Source of the DNA: Actinomycetota bacterium
GTDB taxonomy: Bacteria; Actinomycetota; Actinomycetes; Nanopelagicales; Nanopelagicaceae
DNA length: 64,000 nt
Assembly (NCBI GenBank): GCA_009700025.1
Contig: WLMW01000001.1
Location: 18,915 to 82,914, forward strand
Direction of reading: 5' to 3'
Shown: piece by piece, positions 45,222-59,734 of the stretch
How positions within the stretch are numbered: the stretch's first letter is position 1
Layout of the letters: every line of letters starts with the position of its first letter
Program-made: the position numbers and the translations under genes
Notes under the pieces: model-generated
Seen by the model: the letters and a program-made list of their open reading frames with translations, nothing else
The model's database searches: none
Told to the model about the DNA's origin: nothing

Positions 45222-46439
45222 TTAGTTGATTAATTTACTATCTCTAAGGGCCTGAATTTCTCCTTGGTCCAGTTGAAGAATCCGTTTGAGAACTTCGTCG
45301 GTATCCGCCCCAAATTTGTGAGCAGATTGTGCCTCAAGGTTATGCGTATTTGCAAAGCGTATTGGGGATGAAATATTTGGCAATTCTCCGATGTCTTCTT
45401 GATCCTTCACGGAAAAAATTGGGTTTGCCTCTGACGCACGGGGGTCATTCGCCAGAAGCTCTGTGAAAGTTTGATACTTTGACCAACTTACATTAAATTT
45501 CTTGAATATTTCACTCAGATCCTTTAAATCAATCGCAGAAATAGCAGGTCTAATGACTTCAGATATTTCTCTTCTAAGTCTGTATCGATCAGCTTCAAGA
45601 TCAAGATTTCCATCATGTTTTTCTTCGATCTCCTTCAGCCCATCTTGGATGTCTAACGAATTCTTGATTGAAACCCATTGCCTAGGAGTGAGGCCGACAA
45701 TCATTACTTCAAAATTATCTCTTGTGGTGAAGTTGGCCCCAAAAGCTCCATACAGAAAGTTTCCATCGGCTTGAATCTTTTCGGTTCCTAAATGTGCTTG
45801 TGATAACCTGCCTAGAGCTCCAACCACTGATAGAGCTACATCTGAAAGAGCAATCTTTATAAATTCTCCTTCACCCGTGGCTCTTCTTTTTCTTTCAGCT
45901 ACGAGGATTGCAATGGCAACCATGTTTCCCAGGATTAAATCCCACGTTGGTAACACGCTATTCACGGGTGCATTCGACCCCAATGGGCCTGTTATTAATG
46001 GATATCCAAAAGCCGGATGCACCGTGTAATCAACTTCGCTTGTGCCATCATAATTTCCCGTGAGGGAAACCATAATCAAATCAGGTCGCTTCTTCTTGAG
46101 TGCTTCGTAACTGAGTTCGTCCTTAGCAGGTAAGTTAGTCAGAAATATTCCTGCGTCTTTGCCCGGAGCGGTTATCAGATCAGAAACAATTTCTCTGCCC
46201 TTGCTTGATTTTAAATCCACCTGAATTGAACTTTTACCTCGGTTAAGTCCAATCCAAAACAAACTCTGGTTCTCATTAGTCACTGGCCAACGGTGGAAAT
46301 CAAGACCACCGCTTAAGTGATCAAATCTAATGACATCAGCACCCAGCTGCGCCAAAGTTAATCCACCCAATGGAGCTGCAACAAATGCTGAGCCTTCAAC
46401 GATCCTCAAATCGCTCAGAGCAGCATTTGGCAAATTCAT
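45222..46439 (-). CDS. Family III CoA-transferase (CaiB/BaiF), copy A
   Basis: This 405-residue CoA-transferase moves CoA between carboxylic acids. Family features are VEGSAFVAAPLGGLTLAQLGADVIRFDH at the N-terminus, GLNRGKSSIQVDLK, and the GEGEFIKIALSDVAL region following the active-site Asp area (TWDLILGNM). Such enzymes next to MaoC and CitE genes activate mesaconate, itaconate or citramalate-type acids in other bacteria. It lies 2 bp from the MaoC copy A. It is clearly divergent from copy B at 47911. Confidence 0.9.
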   Translation of the reverse strand: MNLPNAALSDLRIVEGSAFVAAPLGGLTLAQLGADVIRFDHLSGGLDFHRWPVTNENQSLFWIGLNRGKSSIQVDLKSSKGREIVSDLITAPGKDAGIFLTNLPAKDELSYEALKKKRPDLIMVSLTGNYDGTSEVDYTVHPAFGYPLITGPLGSNAPVNSVLPTWDLILGNMVAIAILVAERKRRATGEGEFIKIALSDVALSVVGALGRLSQAHLGTEKIQADGNFLYGAFGANFTTRDNFEVMIVGLTPRQWVSIKNSLDIQDGLKEIEEKHDGNLDLEADRYRLRREISEVIRPAISAIDLKDLSEIFKKFNVSWSKYQTFTELLANDPRASEANPIFSVKDQEDIGELPNISSPIRFANTHNLEAQSAHKFGADTDEVLKRILQLDQGEIQALRDSKLIN

Positions 46440-46441
46440 AA

Positions 46442-46981
46442 TTAGTTCAGTCGGCCTTCAATGGGACCGGTAACTGGAGTGGGGAAGTAGTTCTGTCCAA
46501 TCCCGGAGCTCTTTTTTGGAATCATGACACTTCTATGCCAGGTGACGATTTCAACACCATCTTGGTTTAACCCGCGAGTGAACATCGAAATGATTCCCAT
46601 GTCAGGTTTTGAAGAAGACTCTCGAACCCCTGTACAGATACTCTCTGCATACAGGGTATCTCCAACATAGACGGGATGAGTCAGTTTGATATCAGTCCAG
46701 CCAAGGTTAGCTACTGCATTTTGGCTCATGTCTATGACAGAGATTCCTAGGATGATTGCAACGGTTAAACCTGAATTAACGATGATTTTTCCATTCGAAA
46801 CAGGGTTCGAAAGCGCCAAGTGAGCATTGAAGTGATTTTGATTCGTGTTACATGTTAATTGTGTGAACCACGTACAGTCTGTTTCACTAATAGTTCTACC
46901 AAATGGATGTTCATAAGAATCTCCAACAACGAAATCTTCGAGAAACCTTCCCAGTACTGCTTCGTGCTTAGCCATTTTCAT
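46442..46981 (-). CDS. MaoC-family acyl-CoA hydratase/dehydratase, copy A
   Basis: This 179-residue hot-dog-fold protein resembles mesaconyl-CoA hydratase. LEDFVVGDSYEHPFGRTISETD opens it, the catalytic His region is CNTNQNHFNAHLA, and NAVANLGWTDIKLTHPVYVGDTLYAES is the conserved C-terminal part. It would add or remove water across the double bond of an enoyl-CoA. It overlaps the CitE-like lyase gene by 14 bp, a sign of coupled expression with the likely next enzyme. Confidence 0.9.
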   Translation of the reverse strand: MKMAKHEAVLGRFLEDFVVGDSYEHPFGRTISETDCTWFTQLTCNTNQNHFNAHLALSNPVSNGKIIVNSGLTVAIILGISVIDMSQNAVANLGWTDIKLTHPVYVGDTLYAESICTGVRESSSKPDMGIISMFTRGLNQDGVEIVTWHRSVMIPKKSSGIGQNYFPTPVTGPIEGRLN

Positions 46982-47924
46982 CTCCTCGTGTTGAAGGTAC
47001 TAACCCACTTGCAATTCCTTTTGCGTATAAACCTTCAGCCATTTTTCTGGACGCTTCATCAATCATCTTTCCCTCGAAAAGTAGCGCACCTTTTTGATTT
47101 GTGTTGGTTGACTCGTTAGCAAAATGTTCGATTATTCTTGCAGCTCCATCAAAAGCCGCCTGGCTTGGAGTAAACGCTGTATTAACTGTTTCAATTTGCC
47201 CTGGATGAATAACCCATTTACCGTCGTAGCCAAGTGCCGCCGAAAGCCTTGATCGATTTACCAGACCTTCAATATTAGAGATATCCGAATACGGTCCGTC
47301 GATGGCCATCAAATTATTTGCCCGTGCTGCAATTAAAATTGACATTAATACGTAGTGATAAGCATCGTCACCTGGAAAGTTAATGGGATTTTCGCCGATA
47401 TGAATAACTTGCATTCCGATACTCGCCGCAAAATCTCCAGGACCAAATATCAGTGCTTCAATTCGATCAGAGGATGATGCGATTTCACCGACACGAGAAA
47501 GCCCGAGCGCGGATTCAATTTGAATTTGTATTCTTATTGATCCAGGATTGAGCTCTCCTGATTTTTCTAATTCAGTAAGTCTCTTGCTTAAATCTCTTAC
47601 TTGTTCGGCTGATTCCACTTTTGGAATAATCAGAGAATTAAGATATTTACCAGCTTGTAGAACTATCGATGAGACATCTTCAATTCCTATAGAAGTGATT
47701 TGTTCATTTACACGCACAGCAACGGTTTTTGATTTGAATCCACCATTAATCAGTACACCAACAACCTTTTCTCTGGCAAGAGTTTTTTCAGATAATGCAA
47801 CGGAGTCTTCGAGATCCAAGAATATTTCATCTACTTCAATGGTTTTTGCTTTCTCAAGCATTTTTATACTTGATCCAGGAACAGCAAGCGTAGATCTCTT
47901 TGGACTTGTATTACTTCTTATCAT
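46968..47924 (-). CDS. CitE-like CoA-ester lyase (HpcH/HpaI family)
   Basis: This 318-residue TIM-barrel lyase is of the citrate-lyase-beta / malyl-CoA lyase group, which cleave or form 3-hydroxyacyl-CoA esters. STLAVPGSSIKMLEKA, IFLDLEDSVALSEK (Glu-Asp for Mg), RIQIQIESALGL (catalytic Glu) and EALIFGPGDFAASIG are visible. Family members cleave L-malyl-, beta-methylmalyl- or citramalyl-CoA. Overlaps on both sides (14 bp each) place it firmly within the CoA-transferase/MaoC operon. Confidence 0.9.
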   Translation of the reverse strand: MIRSNTSPKRSTLAVPGSSIKMLEKAKTIEVDEIFLDLEDSVALSEKTLAREKVVGVLINGGFKSKTVAVRVNEQITSIGIEDVSSIVLQAGKYLNSLIIPKVESAEQVRDLSKRLTELEKSGELNPGSIRIQIQIESALGLSRVGEIASSSDRIEALIFGPGDFAASIGMQVIHIGENPINFPGDDAYHYVLMSILIAARANNLMAIDGPYSDISNIEGLVNRSRLSAALGYDGKWVIHPGQIETVNTAFTPSQAAFDGAARIIEHFANESTNTNQKGALLFEGKMIDEASRKMAEGLYAKGIASGLVPSTRGDENG

Positions 47925-49056
47925 TTATCTCGCTAACAATCTCTGCTGTGTGTTCGCCTAGTTTAGGCCCGGCAGAGGTGATTTTTCCTGGTGTTTTTGA
48001 CATTCGAGCAACTAAATTCTGCATCAGAATCCCGTCGACGTGGGTGAAACTCTCTCTTGCGATGAAATGTGGATCTTCAATGACTTGTTGCATGTTGTAT
48101 ACGGGAGCTATGGCTGCATCAGCGGCTTCGATTATTCTAATCACCTCTTGCGAAGGCCTAGAGCCAATCCAATTTTGAGTGAGTTCTTCTAGTGCGTCTC
48201 TATTCTCAAACCGAGCTTGAAATGATTGGAATCGTGGGTCCCCACCGCCGCCAAGGGTTTCAATCAATCTGCCAGCAACTGATTCGGCTGAAGCCGAAAG
48301 TGCAACCCACACCCCATCAGAACATTGATATGTGCCTCTAGGAATTGAGTAGGGAATGCTCGAACCTAAGCGTGGCTGCAAGTAACCCAAAGAATCCCAA
48401 GCAGCGGGCAGCGGTCCCATGATTTGCAGAACTGAATCAACGAGATCGATATCAACGACCTGCCCTTGACCTGTTTGCTTCGCGTGAAAAATCGCCATCA
48501 TCGCCGAGAAAGATCCGACGAGAGCAGTTACTTCATCGGTGAGCGCAATAGGTGGGAGCAGAGGTCCTCCATCAGGTTCACCTAGTAAACCTGATAAACC
48601 AGATAAGGCTTCAGCAATCGTTGCAAAGCCAGGTTTTTGCGCATATGGACCTGTCTGCCCAAAACCAGAAACTCTTAAAATTACTAACTTTGGATTGCGC
48701 TTAATTAGCTCATCTGGATCTAACCCTAAATGTTCGAGTTTTCCAGGACGCATATTTTCAATGAGCAAGTCTGCAGTGGAAATTAATTCCAGCAGTATCT
48801 CTAACTCTGATTGCTGCTTCAAATCAAGAACAACTGAACGCTTTCCACGGTTTACAAGTTTCCACCATAAAGAATCGGTTTCTCCTGGACGTGTCCAACC
48901 CATGCTTCGCGTTGAATCACCAGATGGTCGTTCAATTTTTATTACATCTGCGCCGTAGTCAGCAAAATATTTTGCTACACCTGGTCCTGCAACCACAGTT
49001 GCTAAATCAATAACCTTGATGCCCACTAGTGGGCCTTGGCGATCTCTATTTCCCAT
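47911..49056 (-). CDS. Family III CoA-transferase (CaiB/BaiF), copy B
   Basis: This 381-residue protein has the family N-terminus GIKVIDLATVVAGPGVAKYFADYGADVIKIE, then LVNRGKRSVVLDLK, and GQGQVVDIDLVDSVLQIMG. It is closer to the classic formyl-CoA / succinyl-CoA:acid transferase pattern than copy A. It overlaps the lyase by 14 bp and the upstream MaoC copy B by one base. Two different CoA-transferases in one operon suggest two acids are activated, or one activation and one product-recycling step. Confidence 0.9.
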   Translation of the reverse strand: MGNRDRQGPLVGIKVIDLATVVAGPGVAKYFADYGADVIKIERPSGDSTRSMGWTRPGETDSLWWKLVNRGKRSVVLDLKQQSELEILLELISTADLLIENMRPGKLEHLGLDPDELIKRNPKLVILRVSGFGQTGPYAQKPGFATIAEALSGLSGLLGEPDGGPLLPPIALTDEVTALVGSFSAMMAIFHAKQTGQGQVVDIDLVDSVLQIMGPLPAAWDSLGYLQPRLGSSIPYSIPRGTYQCSDGVWVALSASAESVAGRLIETLGGGGDPRFQSFQARFENRDALEELTQNWIGSRPSQEVIRIIEAADAAIAPVYNMQQVIEDPHFIARESFTHVDGILMQNLVARMSKTPGKITSAGPKLGEHTAEIVSEINDKK

Positions 49057-49541
49057 TAGTTTGCCGGCTTAAGGGGAAGTAATACCGCACGTTCAAATAT
49101 GCAGACGACGTCACCATTTTGGTTTGTGCCAGTCGTTTTTACTGTGAGGATACCTTGATTGGGTTTGCTATTAGAAACTCGTTTTTCCAAGATTTCAGTA
49201 TGGGCATAAATAGTGTCGCCATGAAATACGGGGAGTATGTGCTTAAGCTCTTTAACTCCCAAACTTGCAATTGCTTTACCCGATATATCACTCACTGACA
49301 TTCCAGTTAACAAGGCGTAAATATATGTTCCAAGAACTAAATTCTTGCCACTAGGTAATTCATTTTTTGCATAATTACTATCTACGTGGATTGGACTGCC
49401 GGCCATAGTCAGCATGCTAAATATATGATCTTCGGATTCAGTAATTGTCTTGCCGGGCCAGTGCTTATAGATATCTCCAACTTCAAATTCGTCAAAGAAG
49501 CGGCCATAGCGATCAGAACGAGCGTCAAATTCGCGTGTCAT
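49056..49541 (-). CDS. MaoC-family acyl-CoA hydratase/dehydratase, copy B
   Basis: This 161-residue hot-dog-fold protein is paralogous to copy A: FFDEFEVGDIYKHWPGKTITESEDH, the catalytic region MAGSPIHVDSNYAKNE, and ELKHILPVFHGDTIYAHTEI. It is the first gene of the minus-strand operon reaching down to the lipoyl protein. Its promoter overlaps the LacI-type operator at 49601, with a predicted leader of about 32 nt. Confidence 0.9.
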   Translation of the reverse strand: MTREFDARSDRYGRFFDEFEVGDIYKHWPGKTITESEDHIFSMLTMAGSPIHVDSNYAKNELPSGKNLVLGTYIYALLTGMSVSDISGKAIASLGVKELKHILPVFHGDTIYAHTEILEKRVSNSKPNQGILTVKTTGTNQNGDVVCIFERAVLLPLKPAN

Positions 49542-49579
49542 ATGCAGCCCTCGCCGTATTCCAATCTTTTAGTACCCCT

Positions 49580-49608
49580 AACATACAGAAAAGGCGATTT
49601 TTAGTCAA
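49580..49608 (-). promoter_or_regulatory. Predicted promoter of the MaoC/CoA-transferase/CitE operon
   Basis: Read on the minus strand, TTGACT (-35) lies inside the left arm of the operator palindrome, followed by exactly 17 bp and TATGTT (-10). Transcription would start near 49573, giving a leader of about 32 nt before the MaoC copy B ATG. Repressor bound at 49601-49620 would cover the -35 box. Confidence 0.55.
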
Positions 49609-49620
49609 TCGGTTGACTAA
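49601..49620. promoter_or_regulatory. LacI-type operator, site 1
   Basis: The perfect palindrome TTAGTCAATCGGTTGACTAA has 8 bp arms around TCGG, with the central CG typical of LacI-family operators. The same 20 bp recur exactly at 53987, next to the lacI gene. The site lies between the divergent MaoC operon and enolase gene, and both predicted -35 boxes are inside its arms. Confidence 0.8.
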
Positions 49621-49641
49621 GCACTGCTCTCTACTTTATAT
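49613..49641 (+). promoter_or_regulatory. Predicted promoter of the enolase-superfamily gene, leaderless
   Basis: TTGACT (-35, in the right arm of the operator) is followed by a 17 bp spacer and TTATAT (-10, 49636-49641). The expected start of transcription, about 7 bp further, coincides with the GTG at 49649, so the mRNA would be leaderless. No Shine-Dalgarno sequence is present before that GTG, consistent with this reading. Confidence 0.55.
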
Positions 49642-49648
49642 TTCATTT

Positions 49649-50785
49649 GTGTCTAATTCTAAGGTCACTCAACTAAACGCCGCAACAGTTGAGGCAGAGT
49701 TACCAGCCCCTGTTGTGTTTGGCGATTGGATAATGCGTACTCGCGAATTTGCAGTAGTCAGAGTGGTTTTAAGTTCTGGGGTTGAAGGTTGGGCTTTTGG
49801 ACTTACTCGTGATGGTGCCATTGCTGAGCAAATCAGAAAAACATTGCGAAACATATATGTAGGTACTTTCTCAAAGGACTTGGAAACTACTTTTAAAATC
49901 GCTCAACGCCGGAGTTTGGCATCACATTCAGCTGGTGTAGGTCTCAGAGCTCTTTCTCTCGTTGATTTAGCAATGTGGGATGCATGTGCAAAAGAGGCGG
50001 GTCAATCCATTGCAAAGTTCTTAAGTGGAGATAGACCTAAAATGCCAGCAACTGCAATCATTGGTTACCCCCCGGCCACCATGGGGCCACAGGAAGTCTT
50101 TGATCAAGTTACAGATTTATACGCTCAAGGCTGGCGAAGATTTAAAGCACCGGTAGGAACAAGTAATCAAGCTACGGCCGACAGACTTCTTGCTGCAAGA
50201 AAAGCAGCACCTGATGCATGGATCGGCTGTGATGCTGCATGGATTTATAACGATGTTCCATCCGCATTAGAGCTTTTAGATTTATTACAGGAAGTCAATC
50301 TGGGGTGGTTTGAAGATATTTTTCCACCTGGTAATGCTCAAGTTGTTGCAGATCTAAGAAAAAGTACAAATATTCCAATCGCAATGGGCGATGAACAAGG
50401 GGGGATATATTACCCAGAAGCGCTAATCGCAAAAAATGCTGTCGATGTAGTCCGAATTGATTTAACGTGCATGGGCGGGATAACGGGCGGTAGAAGAATT
50501 GTGGATGAGTGTTTGAGCGCAAATGTAAGCTTTGCCGCTCATATGTTTGCCCATGTGCATAGCCAAGTTTTTGGTGCTTGGGGCTTTACGGAAGTTCCGA
50601 TTGAGTGGGGAGTTCCTTGGACAGGGGTCGATCCTTATGCAGATAGTTTAGAGCAGCCAAAAATTGTGGCCGGCGGACTCATGAAGCCGCTCAGTGAAAA
50701 ACCTGGATTTGGTGATTTGGTAAATTTTGATTGGATAAAGACACAGAAATGCGTAGACCCAGAAGGGATTTTAGTAAGTAAATGA
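49649..50785 (+). CDS. Enolase-superfamily dehydratase, copy A
   Basis: This 378-residue protein is of the mandelate racemase / muconate lactonising group. The track frame begins at 49445, but that would put the operator and promoter inside the gene; the GTG at 49649 also aligns with copy B's start. Family sites visible are GLTRDG, GLRALSLVDLAMWD, the first metal ligand in WIGCDAAW, the second in WFEDIFPPG, GDEQGG, and a catalytic-type His in AAHMFAHVHSQ. It probably dehydrates a sugar acid to a 2-keto-3-deoxy acid. It overlaps the next gene by 4 bp. Confidence 0.85.
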   Translation: MSNSKVTQLNAATVEAELPAPVVFGDWIMRTREFAVVRVVLSSGVEGWAFGLTRDGAIAEQIRKTLRNIYVGTFSKDLETTFKIAQRRSLASHSAGVGLRALSLVDLAMWDACAKEAGQSIAKFLSGDRPKMPATAIIGYPPATMGPQEVFDQVTDLYAQGWRRFKAPVGTSNQATADRLLAARKAAPDAWIGCDAAWIYNDVPSALELLDLLQEVNLGWFEDIFPPGNAQVVADLRKSTNIPIAMGDEQGGIYYPEALIAKNAVDVVRIDLTCMGGITGGRRIVDECLSANVSFAAHMFAHVHSQVFGAWGFTEVPIEWGVPWTGVDPYADSLEQPKIVAGGLMKPLSEKPGFGDLVNFDWIKTQKCVDPEGILVSK

Positions 50786-52247: not shown

Positions 52248-52339
52248 AATAATCTCCTTGCTATTTGCTGCCTGATAGAAGTCTTTCGGCATGCCCTTTT
52301 GAAGCCCAAATACTGCTAAGAAGTGAGTCAAACTCCTTA

Positions 52340-52855
52340 TTAAATCGAGAAGTAGGTGCTGACACAGTTAATGCTGCAATCAAATGTATCGAGATTGAAG
52401 ATGTCAGTGAAGAACAATGGCAAAATCACATGGACTCCAACGTTAATGCAACCTTTTTTCTCTCCCGGGCGGCAGCGAACATTATGAAAGGCCAAGACTT
52501 TGGCGGAAAAATAATTCTGATGTCATCTGTTGCTTGGTTATCAGGTGGCATGTCCACACGTTTGCCATATGCAACGACTAAAGGTGCAGTCACCACAATG
52601 GCCAGAGGATTGGCTAAAGCTTATGGGCCTTATGGAATAACAGTGAATACAGTTGCCCCAGGATTAATTGATACCGCCATGATGCGAAAAGGTTTAAGTG
52701 ATTCTGCACGAAGCCAAATGGAAGAGGCAACCCCGCTCAAGCGCTTTGGTACTCCTGAAGAGGTGGCATCGGTCATCGTTTTTCTTGCTTCGGATGGTGC
52801 GAGTTTTATTTCTGGGGCGACAATAAACGTGTCAGGTGGGTTTACCCTCTATTGA
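52340..52855 (+). pseudogene. Short-chain dehydrogenase lacking its N-terminus
   Basis: The frame encodes the C-terminal two-thirds of a classical SDR: IEDVSEEQWQNHMDSNV, the catalytic Ser in IILMSSVAW, the Tyr-x3-Lys in PYATTKGAV, and the end SFISGATINVSGGFTLY. The Rossmann part with TGxxxGxG and the NAG motif, about 90 residues, is absent. Upstream sequence in any frame does not supply it; the 5' region of the DUF1349 gene lies there instead. Without a cofactor site it is presumably inactive. A very short gene from an internal start is conceivable but unlikely. Confidence 0.75.
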
Positions 52856-52938: not shown

Positions 52939-53979
52939 GTGGCTAGAAACAGTGATTTAGCTAGCGCTAAACCCCAAAGAGCAACTATTCGTGACGTAGC
53001 CCGAATAGCCAAAGTCGATCCAAGTCTGGTTTCAAGAATTGTAAATAACGATCCAAAAGCTAGTGCAACGTTAGCAACCAGAAAACGAGTTCTAGATGCA
53101 GTTGAAGAGTTAGGATATCGAGCTAACTCGGCTGCACGAATGCTAAAAACTGCTCGTACGCAGATGATCGGTCTCCTTTTACCAGATTTTTCTAATCCCA
53201 TGTATTCAGCAATTATCTCTGGAGTTGAAAAACGGTGTACAGAGATTGGGTATGGAGTTTTGCTCGGCGATCATGCTGAGGGTCACTCCGAAAAAACCTT
53301 CACAGATTTACTTGAAAGTGGTCAAGTCGATGGACTTCTCATTGCCTCAGGAACTCTTCCTGACTCATTTTTAAAAAATAATATTTTAAATCACCATGCT
53401 TCAGTTGTGATGATAAATAGAAGAGTAAGAGGCGCAGATGCCAGCGTGATTGTAAAAGACGAACTCGGGGCAGAGCTTGCAGTCCAACATCTTTCACAGT
53501 ATGGAACAAAGACAATTACTGGAATTTTTGGTCACCGAAATGTTGATACCGCCCAGCGTCGTAAAAAGGGTTTTGAGAGTGCTGCTGAAAAATTTGGGCT
53601 TAAACATCAGAGTATCGAAGTGGCATCTTGGGGCATGGAGGACGGCAGAAAAGTCGGAGTTGAACTTTTAAGTAAGAAAGTAATACCTGATGCCGTATTT
53701 GCTTCAACCATCATGATGGGAATTGGATTCTTAAGAGCGGCACACGAGATGTCGATTAAAATTCCAGAGGATTTACGGGTGGTCGCACTTCACGATAGTC
53801 CGATCGCTAATTACCTCACCCCATCCCTTACAACTATTAATCTTCCGACCATTGAGATGGGTGCGCAGGCAGTCGACTTGCTGGTCAGCATGATGAATGG
53901 AGGTTCACCACGGAACATGGTGGTGAGTGATCTTCCGACCTTGACTATTCGCGAGTCATCGCGCTTGGATATTGATTAG
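52939..53979 (+). CDS. LacI-family transcriptional regulator
   Basis: This 346-residue regulator has a helix-turn-helix near residues 17-40 (ATIRDVARIAKVDPSLVSRIVN), the LacI hinge helix (RANSAARMLKT), and a periplasmic-binding-like effector domain (TQMIGLLLPDFSNPMYSAII). It ends with the family's VALHDSPIANYLTPSLTTI and IEMGAQAVDLLV segments. The GTG start begins MARNSDL. An exact operator palindrome follows 7 bp after its stop and another lies at 49601. It most likely represses the island genes until a pathway sugar or sugar acid binds. Confidence 0.93.
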   Translation: MARNSDLASAKPQRATIRDVARIAKVDPSLVSRIVNNDPKASATLATRKRVLDAVEELGYRANSAARMLKTARTQMIGLLLPDFSNPMYSAIISGVEKRCTEIGYGVLLGDHAEGHSEKTFTDLLESGQVDGLLIASGTLPDSFLKNNILNHHASVVMINRRVRGADASVIVKDELGAELAVQHLSQYGTKTITGIFGHRNVDTAQRRKKGFESAAEKFGLKHQSIEVASWGMEDGRKVGVELLSKKVIPDAVFASTIMMGIGFLRAAHEMSIKIPEDLRVVALHDSPIANYLTPSLTTINLPTIEMGAQAVDLLVSMMNGGSPRNMVVSDLPTLTIRESSRLDID

Positions 53980-53986
53980 ATCGAAT

Positions 53987-54006
53987 TTAGTCAATCGGTT
54001 GACTAA
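53987..54006. promoter_or_regulatory. LacI-type operator, site 2
   Basis: This is an exact 20/20 copy of site 1 (TTAGTCAATCGGTTGACTAA), here extended to an 11 bp-arm palindrome by flanking T and A. It lies between lacI and the VOC gene that starts the long plus-strand operon 54069-58781. Unlike site 1, I see no convincing 17 bp-spaced -10 box after its TTGACT, so the exact promoter is not placed. Confidence 0.8.
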
Positions 54007-58825: not shown

Positions 58826-58845
58826 TAGGTCAAACGCTTGACTTA
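58826..58845. promoter_or_regulatory. Probable LacI-type operator, site 3 (diverged)
   Basis: TAGGTCAAACGCTTGACTTA keeps the GTCAA...TTGAC arms and a central CG at the same spacing as sites 1 and 2, with changes at the outer and spacer positions. It lies 104 bp upstream of the SDR gene at 58949, in the only sizeable gap in this part of the island. This placement supports function, but the match is imperfect. Confidence 0.55.
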
Positions 58846-58948: not shown

Positions 58949-59734
58949 ATGTTAGATCAAGAATTTAGTAGTGATATCGCAGTTGTTACCGGAGGAGCTG
59001 CTGGACTTGGCCGTGAAATATCTCTCGCACTAGCATTAAGCGGGGCAAAAGTTTTAGCACTCGATGTTGATCTAGTTGGTTTAGAGGAAACGAAGGCAAT
59101 CGCAGCTGAATCTGGCGGAGAAGTAATTATTCTTCAATGTGATGTTGCGGATAGCGAGAAAGTTAAAGAGGCTTTCAAATATGTAGAAAAAGAGTTTGGC
59201 TTGTGCACAATTATGGTAGCAGCAGCTGGAATTGCCTTATATACAGAGTATTTGGCAATGGGTGAAAAGGAGATGGACCGTGCAATCGCTGTAAATCTTA
59301 AGGGACCATTGTTGTGCGCCCAAGAATCACTTCGTCATATGGAAAAAGCTGGCAGGGGAAATATTATTTTTATCTCGTCAGTTCAAGCGGTCATGAGTTT
59401 ATTTGGTTGTGTGGTTTATGCAGCAACTAAGGCGGGATTAATTGCGGCTGCTCGAACATTGTCGCTTGAAACAGGAAAGATGGGAGTTCGTGTAAATACT
59501 ATTTCCCCAGGAACGATTGATACACCAATGCTCGCTCGAGACTTAGCAAGTATGAACCGTGAAGAGGCATCAAAGTTTCTTGAAAAGGTAAAGGCCGCAA
59601 ATGTTCTAGGCCGTATTGGAAAGCCATCAGAAATCGCCGATGCCGTTAAGTATTTATCATCATCTAAAGCGTCATATGTAACGGGCATCGATTTAAGAGT
59701 TGATGCTGGCTTCACAGCATTGAAAGTCATCTAG
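58949..59734 (+). CDS. Short-chain dehydrogenase/reductase (SDR), likely sugar dehydrogenase
   Basis: This 261-residue classical SDR has cofactor site VVTGGAAGLGREIS, Asp in LALDVDLVG (NAD preference), AAAGIAL, catalytic Ser in FISSVQAV, and Tyr-x3-Lys in VVYAATKAG. A GAGAGG precedes the ATG. As first gene before a D-lyxose-isomerase-like cupin and SMP-30 lactonases, oxidation of an aldose to its lactone is the most natural role. Confidence 0.9.
   Translation: MLDQEFSSDIAVVTGGAAGLGREISLALALSGAKVLALDVDLVGLEETKAIAAESGGEVIILQCDVADSEKVKEAFKYVEKEFGLCTIMVAAAGIALYTEYLAMGEKEMDRAIAVNLKGPLLCAQESLRHMEKAGRGNIIFISSVQAVMSLFGCVVYAATKAGLIAAARTLSLETGKMGVRVNTISPGTIDTPMLARDLASMNREEASKFLEKVKAANVLGRIGKPSEIADAVKYLSSSKASYVTGIDLRVDAGFTALKVI

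Follow-up and report, generated by a model that had tools for sequence, protein, structure and literature searches.

How can two divergent catabolic operons be governed from the one short operator that lies between them, and where, in so little space, do their promoters sit? The locus in question belongs to a 64,000-nucleotide stretch of DNA, the window of this analysis, from genome G000 (1.38 Mb in 69 contigs, 85% complete), and in the genome collection compared its closest named relatives are freshwater actinobacteria of the acI lineage (PMC5301498) such as IMCC19121, whose orthologous region is locus L024. The region around the operator, which we call site 1, is a catabolic gene cluster, and its elements, known or predicted, are as follows.

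45222-49541, minus strand: operon encoding MaoC, CoA-transferase, CitE-like lyase, MaoC and CoA-transferase, in an order kept in relatives
49056-49541, minus strand: MaoC-like hydratase, first gene of that operon, with its ATG at 49541
49580-49585, minus strand: predicted -10 element TATGTT, after a 17-bp spacer; projected start at about 49573
49601-49620, no strand assigned: site 1, LacI-type operator TTAGTCAATCGGTTGACTAA, a 20-bp palindrome with 8-bp arms and a CG centre
49603-49608, minus strand: predicted -35 element TTGACT, in the left operator arm
49613-49618, plus strand: predicted -35 element TTGACT, in the right operator arm
49637-49642, plus strand: predicted -10 element TATATT, after an 18-bp spacer (alternatively TTATAT at 17 bp), followed by 6 nt and then GTG
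49649-50785, plus strand: mandelate racemase/muconate lactonizing enzyme (enolase superfamily) gene, Pfam PF13378 and PF02746, with its GTG start at 49649-49651
52939-53979, plus strand: LacI-family regulator, PF00356 above cut-off, the proposed ligand of sites 1-3

In the leftward operon the first of the two CoA-transferases is of family III, and the CitE-like lyase comes third in order. Rightward, the enolase-superfamily gene (hereafter the enolase gene) is followed by a sugar-isomerase-like TIM-barrel gene and, further on, by the LacI regulator, a VOC protein, E1-type dehydrogenase subunits, an SDR and a second enolase-superfamily gene. The SDR gene at 52265-52855 appears truncated, through deletion or misassembly: the matches to its residues 1-51 and 35-196 stand about 2 kb apart in L023 and L024, and the window is without that 2 kb.

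The first-pass annotation had placed a TTGACT in each arm of site 1, and both are there, at 49613-49618 on the plus strand and 49608-49603 on the minus strand. These two candidate -35 boxes are separated by 4 bp and both read outward, with the -10 elements about 50 bp apart and the predicted starts about 76 bp apart. Matches to the sigma-70 consensus number 10/12 for the plus promoter, read with TATATT at an 18-bp spacer, and 9/12 for the minus promoter, whose predicted transcript would carry a leader of about 32 nt with GGCGAGG ahead of the ATG at 49541. Since a scan with the sigma-70 consensus alone did not rise above chance (3 sites against 4.9 expected), a single sequence could not settle the promoters, and comparison with orthologs was needed.

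Motifs of the LacI family mostly take the form of an even palindrome, 16-22 nt long and centred on CG (PMC4052901), as site 1 does. We compared nine orthologous divergent regions, the window counted among them; across these the operator is identical or has at most one mismatch in seven, is diverged in L031 and is masked by NN in L029. Two of the contigs, L026 and L030, carry an acI-type cluster with conserved gene order, yet are labelled as Alphaproteobacteria and Betaproteobacteria MAGs, and are probably mis-binned. Within the family, the operator at one mismatch or fewer occurs in 6 of 296 genomes. Five of the six belong to the genus of the window and are exactly the five members of that genus with a close enolase ortholog; the sixth comes from a different genus, its operator having the same flanks as L028. 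A search of G000 itself with up to three mismatches returned 8 sites, against 2 with a reversed control pattern, and those of main concern here, besides site 1, are these.

53987-54006, no strand assigned: site 2, an exact 20-bp copy of site 1, 7 bp past the lacI stop codon and ahead of the VOC gene
right arm of site 2, plus strand: predicted promoter, TTGACT + 17 bp + TAGCCT, expected to drive the VOC/E1/second enolase operon
58826-58845, no strand assigned: site 3, related operator TAGGTCAAACGCTTGACTTA, preceding the SDR gene at 58949, with TTGACT + 18 bp + TAGTGT

At every locus compared, a lacI ortholog lies within a few kilobases of the site. Its DNA-binding segment reads RDVARIAKVDPSLVSRIVNNDPKAS in the window and L024-L030 alike and is close to this in L031, and throughout the set in which the segment is identical the operator is likewise invariant or nearly so. 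The genome encodes six LacI-type regulators, of which the other five differ in their binding segments, and neighbourhood and co-occurrence point to the regulator at 52939-53979 as the probable repressor of site 1. Site 3 and the sites on contigs C26 and C18 differ from site 1 in their core and could answer to another LacI. On C26 (L006, G000:C26:10000-18500), related operators with other cores stand ahead of an SDR/ABC sugar transporter cluster, and the contig encodes a LacI of its own; on C18 (L007, G000:C18:3000-8500), a related operator with another core stands ahead of a P450/SDR cluster; for both contigs the regulator is uncertain. A weak operator match on C68 was set aside, with no -10 on either side, and a search of the same genome for TTGACT...AGTCAA at any gap yielded nothing but an unrelated palindrome, on contig C3, that is without the promoter layout.

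The comparison bears out the earlier claim of a -10-like box 17 bp beyond the TTGACT on each strand: past TTGACT, or the form it takes in L031, TANNNT stands at 17 or 18 bp in all nine orthologs on the plus strand and in all nine on the minus strand, against a background in the window of about 1% per position. What needs amending is the plus-strand hexamer, annotated as TTATAT at 17 bp; a -10 is indeed present there and is better read as TATATT at 18 bp, or more generally as TANNNT. The inner bases vary among orthologs (TATGTT, TAGGTT, TATCGT, TAAGGT and TAAAGT on the minus strand; TATATT, TACTTT and TATTCT on the plus strand), and in several relatives, with TACTTT or TAAGGT, the match to TATAAT is poor. 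A -35/-10 pair at 16-18 bp, the mark of divergent sigma-70-type promoters, is conserved on both strands, and this conservation in independent genomes supports the proposal of divergent promoters within one shared operator.

The layout was correctly annotated at site 1, and it is not special to that site: at sites 2 and 3 and at three other operators of this genome the gene-facing arm would likewise act as a -35. On the VOC-facing side of site 2, TAGCCT, TAGTCT or TAGATT lies at exactly 17 bp in 9 of 9 orthologs, and the opposite arm has a -10 at 17-18 bp in none of the nine. Site 3 has a gene-facing TANNNT at 17 or 18 bp in 6/6 orthologs and in 0/6 on the opposite arm; arms facing no gene, pooled over the orthologs of sites 2 and 3, carry one at 17-18 bp in 0 of 15 cases. 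Elsewhere in G000, at sites C26a, C26c and C18 the arm facing the gene has its TANNNT at exactly 17 bp and the other arm has none, and site C26b has none at 17-18 bp. With C26b left out, all seven gene-facing arms of six operators in this genome have TANNNT at 17-18 bp, an agreement whose chance of about 6e-12 (at a flank rate of 7/552) is approximate, post hoc and, given that omission, an indication only. The genome-level statistics were drawn from the window and selected stretches. Our conclusion, as far as such comparison carries it, is that the operator half-sites double as -35 elements throughout the regulon, not just at site 1.

In some relatives the symmetry extends well beyond the operator. 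L025-L028 carry a palindrome of 54 bp with perfect 25-bp arms around TCGG, each arm including the -35, the whole 17-bp spacer and the TA of the -10.

L025:7937-7990, L026:7937-7990, L027:7937-7990, L028:3687-3740 and L030:7937-7990: 54-bp mirror palindrome around the operator, imperfect in L030

The genomes of L025-L028 and L030 are 83-92% identical over six genes. Four arm positions vary between genomes, and in L025-L028 both arms always change; in a test of arm covariation limited to five sequences, 98.4% of positions were paired, 4 pairs had changed two-sidedly and the score exceeded all 500 shuffles. L030 is partly decayed, retaining symmetry at 14 of its 17 outer positions, and in the window, L023 and L024 mirror symmetry is absent (4-6 of 17). 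No other palindrome of this length was found in the relatives' loci examined. In L029, from the UBA7398 assembly, the site 1 palindrome has NN precisely at its centre, at about 7954, which suggests that a hairpin disturbs assembly there. An assembly artefact is an unlikely source of the 54-bp palindrome, because the contigs stem from several independent projects. A role in RNA was considered and rejected, both predicted transcripts starting outside the palindrome.

Template switching is known to homogenise the arms of inverted repeats (PMC8794818, PMC8604942), and the five genomes display what it would leave behind: within a genome the arms match, between genomes both sides change, and imperfect intermediates occur. 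The mirror symmetry is most likely due to template switching that has repeatedly homogenised the arms. The symmetry in L025-L030 could instead be functional in itself, through cruciform extrusion under the negative supercoiling of divergent transcription or through a second symmetric regulator. We think this unlikely, though it has some appeal: the arms are perfect over 25 bp with two-sided changes in four species, the long palindrome would, by prediction, fold into a DNA hairpin of -27 to -30 kcal/mol, and the -10 boxes are retained at the arm ends. Against it, the promoters and operator are kept in the window, L023 and L024, where the symmetry is missing, and in L030, where it is partly broken, and template switching would suffice without selection (PMC8794818, PMC8604942). 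Joining these observations, we tentatively suggest, at somewhat less than even likelihood, that in a subclade of the acI relatives perfect mirror-image promoters are maintained by repeated arm homogenisation, the promoters of two operons evolving as one sequence, possibly with a supercoiling-sensitive cruciform switch.

Where does the rightward message begin? The enolase GTG had been predicted to be leaderless and to have no Shine-Dalgarno sequence, and this reading holds: the 20 nt upstream contain nothing SD-like, and the distance to the -10 is kept in relatives. The -10 ends exactly 6 nt ahead of the enolase GTG or ATG in eight of the nine orthologs, those eight being without an SD-like sequence, and this distance holds although the spacer from operator to -10 is 17 bp in some and 18 bp in others. 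Leaderless actinobacterial genes are marked by a TANNNT some 12 bp upstream of their start codon (PMC3160421), and the enolase gene shows this pattern, with TANNNT about 12 nt upstream and no SD, in 8 of 9 orthologs. Leaderless genes look ordinary in this lineage: among 91 genes from the window, L010 and L024, TANNNT stands 12 nt before the candidate start in 11, making this the commonest distance, against about 4 at most others.

It is improbable, in our estimate, that the enolase gene is instead read from an upstream promoter or begins at a different codon. Such a reading could draw on the window alone, in which the enolase frame is open upstream to 49445, and on the most distant ortholog, L031 (L031:82-182), which keeps both operator-embedded promoters and places a longer, SD-containing leader before the enolase gene. 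Several observations oppose it. The orthologs have in-frame stops upstream of the start, which in L023, L026 and L028 lie just two codons away, and translation in the orthologs therefore cannot begin above the -10; the first conserved residues come after the proposed start; and, besides the missing SD, the 6-nt interval persists despite the varying spacer. As L031 has an SD leader, the leaderless start would not be universal among orthologs, and it can have been gained or lost. Two back-to-back promoters with their -35s in one operator, together with a leaderless enolase gene, are on this comparative evidence well supported.

We hold it highly probable that the LacI-family protein encoded at 52939-53979 binds an operator at site 1 whose half-sites are outward-facing sigma-A -35 elements, represses in both directions and controls a leaderless enolase RNA. 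The operator, the promoters and the leaderless layout are supported by sequence and comparison; the identity of the repressor, repression itself, the inducer and the mutual exclusion of polymerases are what we infer. Without inducer, a single LacI dimer would cover both -35 hexamers and keep both catabolic operons off. The inducer would probably be a sugar acid or pathway product; it would release LacI and allow polymerase to load in either direction, presumably one at a time given that the -35 boxes are 4 bp apart, with the result that the promoters would compete. Even with no repressor bound, the polymerases would probably exclude each other sterically, and competition of opposite polymerases is documented for bidirectional promoters sharing a -10 (PMC12825309). 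The rightward RNA would begin on the enolase GTG and be translated leaderless, and the leftward RNA would have a short SD leader.

The regulator might act at the -35 as an activator or dual regulator rather than as a repressor, and some LacI-family proteins are dual regulators (PMC4052901), but steric repressors classically sit where this site does, across both -35 hexamers, and each promoter already has a near-consensus -35, so that we give activation little credence. We give as little credence to the reading in which TTGACT serves repressor recognition only, its -35 likeness accidental and the true promoters elsewhere: the operator would be conserved for binding in any case and sigma-70 scoring does not exceed chance, but accident cannot account for a TANNNT that stands at 17-18 bp on the arms facing genes, is absent at that distance from the remaining arms, and is kept even though lineages differ in the three central bases of the -10 and over most of the spacer.

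Operator half-sites doubling as -35 elements would give a streamlined, abundant freshwater lineage an economical regulatory design, in which half-sites, -35s and nearly the start codon fit within about 80 bp. Promoters and LacI regulons in acI genomes could be predicted simply from the fixed spacing of 17-18 bp; our literature search found no transcription-start study of acI. The mirrored relatives provide a natural test of the way in which palindrome homogenisation can tie the evolution of two promoters together.

One operator region also governs two divergent transcripts in the E. coli bio and arg operons and in Tn10 tetA/tetR. The promoters of bio and arg face each other, however, and tet has two operators; here the promoters stand back to back, and each half-site supplies one of the two -35 hexamers. 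A search for literature on back-to-back promoters with a single operator found nothing useful, and, so far as our search shows, every component is already known and the combination is new. Bacterial bidirectional promoters (PMC12825309) resemble site 1 in that symmetry permits two opposite, mutually exclusive polymerase orientations, the exclusion being putative here. They differ in sharing a -10, with overlapping elements and starts 10-23 bp apart; site 1 lies outside this class, its symmetric element being the -35/operator and its predicted starts about 76 bp apart. The enolase gene shares with leaderless actinobacterial genes (PMC3160421) the TANNNT 12 nt before a GTG or ATG and the lack of an SD; it departs from them in no essential respect, the leaderless layout being combined here with an operator-embedded -35. 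Quasipalindrome correction (PMC8794818, PMC8604942) likewise makes inverted-repeat arms identical and yields multi-base, two-sided changes, whereas in the acI relatives the arms consist of promoter sequence, the -35 and spacers of a predicted divergent pair. Finally, site 1 has in common with LacI-family operators (PMC4052901) the 20-bp even palindrome with its CG centre, the position beside catabolic and regulator genes and the local regulon, and is set apart from them by a half-site that is itself the predicted -35 hexamer, with a -10 at a fixed 17-18 bp on the gene-facing sides.
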